A DNA stretch of 64,000 bases from Chloroflexota bacterium (GTDB lineage Bacteria > Chloroflexota > Dormibacteria > Dormibacterales > Dormibacteraceae): positions 1-64,000 of the forward strand of contig VBEG01000025.1 in the NCBI GenBank assembly GCA_005882115.1. Reading direction: 5' to 3'. The translations under genes were made by a program, and so were the position numbers. The notes under the pieces are model-generated. The model ran no database searches. It saw only the letters and a program-made list of their open reading frames with translations, and was not told where the DNA came from. Positions 13,023 to 63,942 of the stretch are shown piece by piece; position 1 is the first letter of the stretch, and the number at the start of each line of letters is the position of its first letter.

Positions 13023-13160
13023 CCGGGCTTTCACTCCACTCCCTTAACGGCGCGGGGGATCCGGATCCCTTGCGAAAGTCCCATTTGGCACTCAGGTTGT
13101 CCGCAGTCGTAGCGGATTGTCCGGGGACGCCCGGGATAATCCGGGCTTCCGCTCCACTCC
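13023..13160. repeat. Short direct repeats flanking an intergenic segment: CCGGGCTTTCACTCCACTCC (13023-13042) and CCGGGCTTCCGCTCCACTCC (13141-13160)
   Basis: 18/20 identity, 118 bp apart. Confidence 0.6.
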
Positions 13161-13178
13161 ACTAGATTGAAGAAGTCG

Positions 13179-58127: not shown

Positions 58128-58886
58128 TTGGCTCCCATCGCAGTCATCACCGGAGCTTCATCGGGGATCGGGGCCGCAACCGCGATCGCGCTCGGCCGCC
58201 ACGGCTACAAGGTCGTGATCGGCGCGCGGCGGATCGAACGGCTCCAGCGGGTCGCGGGCGAAGAGGGAGTTGCCCTGCGTCTCGACGTGACCGACGAGCA
58301 GAGCGTCAAGGAATTTGTCCGCGAAGTGGCCAAGCGCTTTGGCCACATCGACCTCCTGGTCAACAACGCCGGCGGCGCGTTCGGCTTGAACAGCGTGGCT
58401 CAGGCGGTCGACGACGAGTGGATCGGGATGTGGAAGACCAACGTGCTCGGCCTCATGTGGATGACCCGTGCCTGCCTGCCGTTGTTGCGCCAAGCCAGGC
58501 ACGGCCATATCGTCAACATCGGTTCCATCGCCGGCTTCGAGACATATAAAGGAGGCGCGGGCTACACGGCTGCCAAGCACGCCGTGCGAGCGATCACGAA
58601 GACCCTCCGGCTGGAGCTGAACGGCGAGCCGATTCGCGTCACGGAGATCGCGCCTGGGCTGGTCGAGACCGAGTTCAGCGTGGTGCGTTTTCACGGCGAC
58701 CGCAAAGCCGCCAAGGCGGTTTATGAAGGAATCAAGCCGCTGACCGCCGAAGACATCGCCGACTGCATCGTGTTCGCCGTCACGCGACCACCGCATGTCG
58801 ACATCGATGAGATCGTGGTCCGGCCGGTCGCGCAAGCCAACGTGACCACGGTCGCACGCAAAGTCACCAATACGCGCAAGCGCTAG
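58128..58886 (+). CDS. SDR family oxidoreductase
   Basis: VITGASSGIGAATAIAL, LVNNAGGAFG, YTAAKHAVRAITKTLRLEL; TTG start. Confidence 0.94.
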   Translation: MAPIAVITGASSGIGAATAIALGRHGYKVVIGARRIERLQRVAGEEGVALRLDVTDEQSVKEFVREVAKRFGHIDLLVNNAGGAFGLNSVAQAVDDEWIGMWKTNVLGLMWMTRACLPLLRQARHGHIVNIGSIAGFETYKGGAGYTAAKHAVRAITKTLRLELNGEPIRVTEIAPGLVETEFSVVRFHGDRKAAKAVYEGIKPLTAEDIADCIVFAVTRPPHVDIDEIVVRPVAQANVTTVARKVTNTRKR

Positions 58887-59019
58887 CCTGCCTCACACAG
58901 CCCTCTCCTCGCGGGGGTCAGCTCCCGTCCGCCGTTGCGCTCGAAAACGACCGCGTGCATCAGGCTGGTTGCTCCTCCTACTTGATCAAACCGGCCGCAC
59001 GGGCCTCCTCTTTCGTCAT

Positions 59020-59178
59020 TCAACAACCGGGCTCGCCGTAGTTGCCGCAGCAGCCGCGTCCACCGGCCTTCCTGCGGACATTGCTGACCATCAGGCGCAT
59101 GCGTTCGAAGGGCGAATAGGGTCCCGCCGCGAGATTGCGAACGAAGCTAGAGGGCGAAGGACGCAGCCGCCGGCTCAT
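59020..59178 (-). CDS. Small 52-aa protein ending in CCGNYGEPGC
   Basis: MSRRLRPSPSSFVRNLAAGPYSPFERMRLMVSNVRRKAGGRGCCGNYGEPGC; ATG in the repeat edge. Confidence 0.5.
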   Translation of the reverse strand: MSRRLRPSPSSFVRNLAAGPYSPFERMRLMVSNVRRKAGGRGCCGNYGEPGC

Positions 59179-59548
59179 TCGTAGGTCAATTGTTGCCTTT
59201 CGATTCAAGACGAGCATTGTCGGCAGGCCGGATTTACTCCGGCCGCCACCGGGTGGCGTCCACCAAACGCCTGCCAAACGCGGCCGGCCATCGCAGGGGA
59301 TGGCCCGCGGAAGGGGACAGAGTCCTCTTCCGCGATTTCATTCGTAGGTCAATTGTTGCCTTTCGATTCAAGACGAGCATTGTCGGCAGGCCGGATTTAC
59401 TCCGGCCGCCACCCGTCAAGACGAGCATTGTCGGCAGGCCGGATCTACTCCGGCCGCCACCGGGTGGCGTCCACCAAACGCCTGCCAATCGCGGCCGGCC
59501 ATCACAGGGGATGGCCCGCGGAAGGGGACGGAGTGATCTTCCGCGATT
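59175..59548. repeat. Nested tandem repeat: 163-bp unit (59175-59337) and second unit (59338-59548) with an extra 48-bp duplication
   Basis: Core AGGCCGGATTTACTCCGGCCGCCACC at 59225, 59388 and 59436 (one T>C). Confidence 0.92.
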
Positions 59549-59941
59549 TCATTCGTAATAGTTGTCTTTGTACTCGATCCAGCCTGGATTGGGACAGCCG
59601 CTGGAGGTGTGGGCGTGCGTGCAGTGCACGCCATAGCGCGGACCTGGGTCGATGTAGAGCTCGCCGTGGATCACGAGCCCATCACCTTTGTGAACCGGTA
59701 CGTACTGGGCGAGGCTCGTGTTGTGGTCGACCTCGAGCATCTCTCCTGTGGCCGCGCGGACCTCGAAGCGCTCGTGGTCACCGGATTGCACCGGATCGCT
59801 CAATGCCGTCGCGTCGAAAGTGACTTCGGCTCCACCGCGGTTGTTCTGGATCTCGCGATGTAGGCCCTGGTCGTCGGCAGTCTCCCGGCCGCCGCACGCG
59901 GCCAGCACGAGCGCCGCGAAAAGGCACGCCGCGAGCCTCAC
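59549..59941 (-). CDS. Lipoprotein with DUF3465-like domain
   Basis: Lipobox LVLAAC; GDHERFEVRAATGEMLEVDHNTSLAQYVPVHKGDGLVIHGE...GWIEYKDNYYE. Confidence 0.75.
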   Translation of the reverse strand: MRLAACLFAALVLAACGGRETADDQGLHREIQNNRGGAEVTFDATALSDPVQSGDHERFEVRAATGEMLEVDHNTSLAQYVPVHKGDGLVIHGELYIDPGPRYGVHCTHAHTSSGCPNPGWIEYKDNYYE

Positions 59942-62594: not shown

Positions 62595-62832
62595 GACGTG
62601 ATACCTAGGCCGGATTTACTCCGGCCGTCACCTGGGGTCCCCCTTGCAAACGCCACCAGACACAGCGTGCAATGGAGGGGGTTTTACGGGGGAGGCCTGC
62701 CTCCCCCGTGAAAGACGTGATACCTAGGCCGGATTTACTCCGGCCGTCACCTGGCGACCCCCTTGCAAACCCCACCAGACACAGCGTGCGATGGAAGGGG
62801 TTCCACGGGCGAGGCCTGTCTGCCCCGTGAAA
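62595..62832. repeat. Two tandem 119-bp repeats (62595-62713, 62714-62832)
   Basis: About 10 mismatches in 119 bp; each carries AGGCCGGATTTACTCCGGCCGTCACC. Confidence 0.92.
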
Positions 62833-63942
62833 GTAGTCGTCGCGCCGAACGCGTTCAAAGGCACTCTCACCGCGACGCAAGCCGCGGCCGCGATCGCGCG
62901 AGGCGTCCGTGAAGTCTTTCCGGACGCCGAGGTGATCGAGGTTCCCGTCGCGGACGGGGGCGATGGGACCGTCGAGGCGCTGGTCGACGCGAATCGCGGT
63001 GAGTATCGGTCGGCGACAGTCGATGGGCCGCTGGGCGATCCAGTCGAGGCTCGCTACGGCCTCATCAATTCTGGCCGCACCGCGGTCGTCGAGCTCGCGA
63101 CGTCCAGCGGGTTGGCTTTGCTCGCGCCCGAACGGCGTGATCCTCGGCGAGCTTCGACCTATGGATTCGGCGAGCTGCTCGAAGCGGCGCGTTCGTCAGG
63201 CGCATCAGAGATCATCGCAGGCATCGGCGGCTCGGCCACCAACGACGGAGGCGCCGGGATGGCACAGGCCGTCGGCTACCGCCTGCTCGACGATGCGGAT
63301 CAGGACCTGGCCCGAGGTGGCGCCGCGCTTGCTCGAGTCCAGCGCATCGCGGGCGGCTCTCGAATCCGCGATACCTCGATCAGGGTTGCCTGTGACGTTG
63401 ACAATCCGCTGCTTGGGCCAAAGGGTGCCAGCCACGTCTACGGTCCGCAGAAGGGCGCCGATGAACTGACGGTGGAGGAGCTCGATGCGGCGCTCGCGCA
63501 TCTCGCAGAAGTCGTCAGGCGCGACCTGCACCTCGATGTGGCGAATGAACCTGGCGCGGGAGCCGCCGGAGGCACCGGCTTTGGGATGGTCGCGTTCCTG
63601 GGCGCGGTTCTGGTCAAGGGCGCGCCACTTGTGGTCGAGGCGAGCGGGTTCGACCAGACGCTGAAGGGAGCCGACCTCGTGTTCACAGGCGAGGGGCGGG
63701 TCGACGAGCAGACCGCCTTCGGCAAAGCGCCCGGCGAGGTGGCCAAGCGCGCCAAGAGGGCTCGGGTGCCGGTGGTCCTCCTGGCGGGGAGCAAGGGCCC
63801 TGGTTGGGAGGCGTTGAGCAAGCAGGGGGTCACCTACATCGTGACCTTCACAGAGGAAGGAATAGACCTGCGGCAGGCCCTAAATGACCCAGAGGGGATG
63901 CTGGCGCGCGCCGCCGTAGTAGCCTGCCGCAGGCTAAGGTGA
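62827..63942 (+). CDS. Glycerate kinase
   Basis: VKVVVAPNAFKGTLTATQAA, VADGGDGTVEAL, GIGGSATNDGGAGMAQAVG. Confidence 0.93.
   Translation: MKVVVAPNAFKGTLTATQAAAAIARGVREVFPDAEVIEVPVADGGDGTVEALVDANRGEYRSATVDGPLGDPVEARYGLINSGRTAVVELATSSGLALLAPERRDPRRASTYGFGELLEAARSSGASEIIAGIGGSATNDGGAGMAQAVGYRLLDDADQDLARGGAALARVQRIAGGSRIRDTSIRVACDVDNPLLGPKGASHVYGPQKGADELTVEELDAALAHLAEVVRRDLHLDVANEPGAGAAGGTGFGMVAFLGAVLVKGAPLVVEASGFDQTLKGADLVFTGEGRVDEQTAFGKAPGEVAKRAKRARVPVVLLAGSKGPGWEALSKQGVTYIVTFTEEGIDLRQALNDPEGMLARAAVVACRRLR

Follow-up and report, generated by a model that had tools for sequence, protein, structure and literature searches.

A nested tandem repeat separates a lipoprotein gene from a small open reading frame (ORF) in a 64,000-nucleotide stretch of a Chloroflexota genome, referred to here as the window, and the locus raises two questions: where the small ORF really ends, and how the boundary between two genes came to be repeated.

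The small ORF and its in-frame UGA

The small ORF occupies 52 codons on the minus strand (59023-59178) and is followed by UGA at 59020-59022. The first-pass annotation had named a lack of conservation in relatives as a ground for refutation; the ORF is in fact conserved, with copies in 22 of the 41 genomes searched (the own genome counted). All 21 clade members read have UGA as the stop and never UAA or UAG; in every clade member checked, UGA directly follows CCG[NHQ]YG[DE]PGC. The frame continues beyond it in these 21 members as MT-x-x-EAR-x-AGL, with MTKEEARAAGLIK conserved in the family-level clade, and in the window it runs to a TAG at 58978-58980. Third codon positions take 53 of the 97 changes after the UGA, more than their share (p 1e-5), and the codons GAG GCC CGT GCG GCC are near-invariant at the DNA level (each in 19-20 of 20 sequences), although the window genes use CGT for only about 10% of their Arg residues; this invariance beside third-position variation indicates that both the peptide and the RNA are constrained. 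The first-pass annotation had also guessed that the Cys-containing tail was important, which was right in direction, but its anatomy was wrong: CCGNYGEPGC is not a C-terminus and is followed by the in-frame UGA and a further conserved stretch. It is very probable that this UGA (59020-59022, minus strand) codes for selenocysteine (Sec), in which case the small ORF would be the first 52 codons of a putative 66-residue selenoprotein, ...CCGNYGEPGC-Sec-MTKEEARAAGLIK (58981-59178, minus strand).

The published model of the bacterial selenocysteine insertion element (bSECIS) places the stem-loop 16-37 nt from the UGA and requires a G, with G or U frequently next to it, within the first two positions of the loop (PMC13188914); the hairpins found after the UGA in this family fit that model. 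The window carries the bSECIS-like hairpin GGCC-CGUGC-GGCC (58993-59005, minus strand), its loop beginning 18 nt past the UGA; it was recognised from the near-invariant codons together with the hairpins of the family. Of 68 UGA copies, 67 have a hairpin with 4 or more base pairs whose loop starts 17-23 nt after the UGA; in G017 the stem is only 3 bp. GU stands at loop positions 2-3 in 55 of the 68, mostly as CGUGC, CGUGA or GGUC, and most of the 13 copies without a GU loop have another G-containing loop. Under the same rule, GU loops follow only 3 of 299 ordinary UGA stops that close long ORFs in the same DNA (p 7e-49); further controls gave 11 of 244 ordinary UGA stops under a looser rule and 3.6% for shuffled sequences. 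In a set of 35 distinct hairpins, pairing is intact at 97% of stem positions, compared with a mean of 55% and a maximum of 66% after the 3' arms were swapped; the hairpin stems covary. The window hairpin alone is short (stem 4 bp) and not unusually stable (folding energy against shuffles, z -0.2), so the case rests on conservation.

A Chloroflexota family with UGA or Cys

An alignment of clade members matched 39 of 301 sampled Chloroflexota genomes, and a wider alignment matched 59 of 400, two of them marginally (G230 and G304). Among the 71 copies read from the phylum, the codon next to CCGxxGxPGC is UGA in 68 and TGC (Cys) in three (G052, G115 and G188), the Cys forms reading CCGNHGQPGCCATGSCSIGPEHPH once and CCGHPGEPGCCE twice. 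Members have about 50-90 residues with Sec near the C-terminus; several tails are His-rich, e.g., MRDASSGADDHHHGHGHNHTH, VVEHSSGSGEHSHTHFHSHRHKK and KPHDHKPHDHGK, one Cys-form member ends CATGSCSIGPEHPH, and several genomes have just 3-4 codons beyond the UGA, where genuine termination may occur. The predicted family can be described by the motif CCGxxGxPGC[U/C], a variable, often His-rich tail, and an occasional Cys in place of Sec. In G239 (L170), G401 (L149) and G334 (L150), two or three paralogues lie side by side in tandem, and those read each have UGA and a hairpin. The Cys form of G188 (L164; TGC GAG TGA) still has a downstream hairpin with a CGUGA loop, which may be the remnant of a bSECIS.

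These copies bear on two other readings of the UGA. If it were a true stop, the 13 downstream codons would form a separate, translationally coupled mini-ORF beginning at the ATG right after it; an ATG does always follow the UGA in the window's family (20 of 20), with a stop/start geometry typical of coupling. Outside the window's clade, however, most copies have no start codon right after the UGA (E, L, R and Q tails), yet the in-frame tail and the hairpin persist, and a separate coupled ORF is therefore disfavoured. In addition, Cys sits exactly at the UGA position in three homologues, and a separate ORF has no need of a GU-loop hairpin at fixed spacing; this reading is considered very improbable. 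UGA readthrough occurs in bacteria, and generic readthrough (Trp or near-cognate) would give a low-level extended form without Sec. However, where the UGA is replaced, Cys and not Trp or Arg stands in its place, the hairpin conforms to the bSECIS model, and Sec machinery is present, so that generic readthrough is regarded as extremely improbable.

As for that machinery, the own genome encodes SelA (518 bits, cut-off 268) adjoining SelB (346 bits, cut-off 242), and a tRNA-Sec (Rfam 72.5 bits, cut-off 47; ARAGORN anticodon TCA). SelB was found in 38 of 39 UGA-type genomes tested versus 48 of 64 phylum genomes without the family (p 0.002), which is modest evidence because the phylum as a whole often carries SelB (75% of controls). 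Two family genomes lack SelB: G115, which carries the Cys form, as expected, and G359 (L137), a 98% complete genome with UGA and hairpin in which SelB was not detected and which is an exception. For G359, either a contig is missing or the UGA has reverted to a true stop. In the selenocysteine reading, SelB guided by the bSECIS hairpin 18 nt downstream would insert Sec at the UGA. Taken as a bacterial selenoprotein, the small ORF shows an in-frame UGA with coding conservation on either side, and a bSECIS-like hairpin, Cys homologues and Sec machinery are likewise found; in all likelihood it belongs to a new selenoprotein family.

The repeat and its origin

Upstream of the small ORF lies a gene for a DUF3465-like lipoprotein of 130 aa (59549-59941, minus strand), an assignment that is barely supported (Pfam PF11948, 25.4 bits against a cut-off of 25). 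Its ORF ends TAT TAC GAA TGA, and orthologues occur in 34 of 41 relatives. In the window's family the small ORF is nearly always directly downstream of the lipoprotein gene; the link is seen only in the window's clade, and inspection of neighbourhoods outside that clade revealed no common neighbour gene. On the other side, relatives carry a quinone-oxidoreductase-like gene (MHAVVFERNGGPEVLE...) downstream of the selenoprotein gene, of which the window keeps about the first 12 codons (58880-58965, minus strand) before diverging, followed by an SDR gene on the opposite strand (58128-58886); the remnant suggests a local deletion or rearrangement.

On re-examination, the nested tandem repeat reported in the first-pass annotation was recovered on the minus strand, together with the lipoprotein end at 59549 and the coordinates of the 52-codon ORF. 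It consists of a proximal unit at 59338-59548 (211 bp = 163 + 48; covariance-model match 59411-59565) and a distal unit at 59175-59337 (163 bp; covariance-model match 59200-59354). Both units end in the shared edge CCTACGAATGA; the small ORF begins at the last ATG, its start codon being supplied by the final ATGA of the distal unit. The internal 48-bp tandem duplication (59368-59461, minus strand; TRF period 48, 97% match) holds the hairpin GGCCGGA-N5-TCCGGCC twice, the repeat as a whole holds three such hairpins, and the repeat copies at the locus are 96-100% identical. The gene boundary itself is duplicated, as had been claimed: the 9-bp junction TACGAATGA stands at the lipoprotein end (59549-59557, minus strand), where it is single in relatives without the insert, and again at the unit ends (59338-59346 and 59175-59183, minus strand).

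The same hairpin occurs twice more elsewhere in the window and at 13 sites in the genome, a metagenome-assembled genome (MAG) of 3.36 Mb in 147 contigs, compared with one site for a reversed-pattern control, which is beyond chance. The repeat belongs to a dispersed element of about 120-150 bp composed of a 5' hairpin, a middle part, a palindrome and a short tail. A covariance model built from 12 copies gave 17 matches in the own genome and 2-23 in each of 15 other genomes sampled from the genus, the copies frequently standing head to tail; relatives of the own genome are soil Chloroflexi/Ca. Dormiibacterota MAGs. The element is carried by 16 of 16 sampled genomes of the genus (own included) and was found by this model in none of nine sampled genomes of other genera; it is thus genus-specific, dispersed and hairpin-rich. 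A weak copy at 13031-13171 (plus strand; 32.8 bits, E 3e-6) is probably decayed. Two more tandem copies with a 119-bp period (62595-62833, minus strand) lie between the branched-chain aminotransferase (BCAT) and glycerate kinase genes, directly abutting the stop of the former and the GTG start of the latter, and in the window and some relatives the glycerate kinase start codon appears to come from the element's CCCCCGTG. The BCAT-glycerate kinase gap also holds the element in four relatives (G003, G004, G011 and G014) and an unrelated palindromic spacer in six (G001, G002, G007, G008, G013 and G016); a second, different palindrome, CCGGATAGTCCGGACTATCCG ... TCCGGACTAACC, fills this gap where the first element is absent (L203, L205, L206, L210, L212 and L213).

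In at least seven relatives without the insert (G002, G003, G007, G008, G009, G011 and G013), the lipoprotein stop overlaps the small-ORF start as GAATGA, and joining the window flanks in silico restores the same intact junction. From the empty sites and the rejoined flanks, an insertion with a target-site-like duplication, followed by tandem duplication, can be deduced, and it is highly probable that the repeat originated as an insertion at the gene junction. In terms of MITE-like features, TACGAATGA lies on both sides and there are at least seven empty sites, all at one locus; from this one locus we infer a 9-bp target-site duplication of TACGAATGA. The element would have landed at the GAATGA overlap of the lipoprotein and selenoprotein genes in the own species, duplicated TACGAATGA and then expanded in tandem; both reading frames would have survived, and two genes that overlap in relatives, where they are probably translationally coupled, would have become separated.

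Of the readings first offered for the repeat, that of an insertion element using gene ends is supported by the genus-wide element, the empty sites and the duplicated junction, while slippage or tandem duplication accounts for how many copies there are and leaves their origin unexplained. It is quite unlikely that the repeat is a product of misassembly, or that it arose at the junction by replication slippage alone with no insertion: the source is a MAG whose copy number comes from this assembly alone, and the internal 48-bp unit and the two 163-bp units look slippage-made, but every sampled member of the genus carries this element, which the own genome also has at other sites, a related insert occupies the lipoprotein/small-ORF site in G016, and G001 (L210) keeps the left insertion junction TACGAATGA-AATCGCCGAAG although it retains little else of the element and little of the small gene. 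The selenoprotein gene of G001 is missing up to GGTTTGATCAAGTAG, an apparent recent loss. The first-pass reading of a duplicated regulatory leader found no support. More broadly, the element could serve a neighbouring gene as an RNA leader with regulatory function or as a terminator, since its hairpins are strong and several copies lie flush against gene ends; however, an Rfam search of the window and the element copies returned nothing relevant, orientation to flanking genes differs between copies, and the same genes occur in relatives without the element, which makes such a role unlikely.

In form, the inserted element resembles ERIC/RU-1, other MITE-like intergenic repeats and REP/RAYT systems, being about 120-150 bp, non-coding, hairpin-rich, intergenic and dispersed; unlike them, it is genus-specific, frequently in head-to-tail tandem copies, and without a Y1 (RAYT) transposase in the genus. 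A REP/RAYT system is not supported, because a Y1 (TnpA-REP/RAYT) transposase as mobiliser was found in none of the 16 genus genomes. Inspection by eye revealed no clear terminal inverted repeat in the locus copy, and the partner search was limited to Y1. The repeat thus offers an example of a dispersed element landing exactly on an overlapping stop/start and sparing both genes.

Novelty and possible role of the putative selenoprotein

Profile searches of the small protein found no relative in Pfam, NCBIfam, PHROGs or PDB, a search of a plasmid collection with a Cys homologue gave no convincing match, and a text search of the open-access literature found no paper with the motif strings of the family. 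None of the 119 prokaryotic selenoprotein (sub)families of a May 2026 review (PMC13188914) matches the small protein, and none of the families of a 2025 deep-learning selenoprotein search (PMC12013277) fits it. The family is apparently undescribed so far, the genome scans having covered Chloroflexota and the literature search open-access papers. With selenoproteins of the E. coli formate dehydrogenase FdhF type it shares the in-frame UGA, a near-3' hairpin with GU in the apical loop, SelA/SelB/tRNA-Sec and Cys homologues; it differs from these in its small size, in the position of Sec after CCGxxGxPGC near the C-terminus, and in being unrelated to Pfam/NCBIfam families. Small Cys/Sec families in NCBIfam include SaoC (Cys-Cys-COOH, NF040734), the CC/Se motif (NF041239), KCU-star/DUF466 (NF033934) and TsoC (NF045708), which likewise have short Cys/Sec motifs, in some of them with Cys and Sec side by side (PMC13188914). 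The window protein and four diverse members match none of these families, nor any other NCBIfam/Pfam selenoprotein family, at E<=1. Eukaryotic thioredoxin reductase (TrxR) has a C-terminal Gly-Cys-Sec-Gly motif; the likeness is in working only, a vicinal Cys-Sec after Gly near the C-terminus, and unlike TrxR the small selenoprotein has no reductase domain and no homology to it.

Structure prediction with AlphaFold2 on 19 sequences gave a low-confidence model (pLDDT 65, pTM 0.37) with only three short helices. No signal peptide or lipobox was seen by inspection, so the small protein is probably cytosolic. The N-terminal helices of the low-confidence model would precede a Cys-Cys-Gly...Pro-Gly-Cys-Sec loop, and the active site would comprise the vicinal Cys-Sec pair and the upstream Cys-Cys pair; selenenylsulfide formation is possible between vicinal Cys and Sec, and the two pairs together could serve in electron transfer or in the binding of soft metals. 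A metal link is favoured by the His-rich tails. The protein is probably a small cytosolic redox or metal/thiol-handling protein, a role assigned with low confidence. More tentatively, at slightly below even chances, this phylum-wide family of about 50-90 residues may be a minimal stand-alone selenium redox/metal-transfer module, in which Cys-Sec is fed by Cys-Cys and often accompanied by a His-rich tail, and which would go back to an early Chloroflexota ancestor with repeated Sec/Cys exchange.

Standard gene calling ends the small protein at its most important residue, and a phylum-wide family has therefore probably been missed or recorded as truncated hypothetical proteins. New selenoprotein families point to chemistry that is worth a selenium cost to cells. 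The tiny size of this family, its fixed CCGxxGxPGCU core, and its presence in single-contig genomes that may come from cultured strains make it directly testable.
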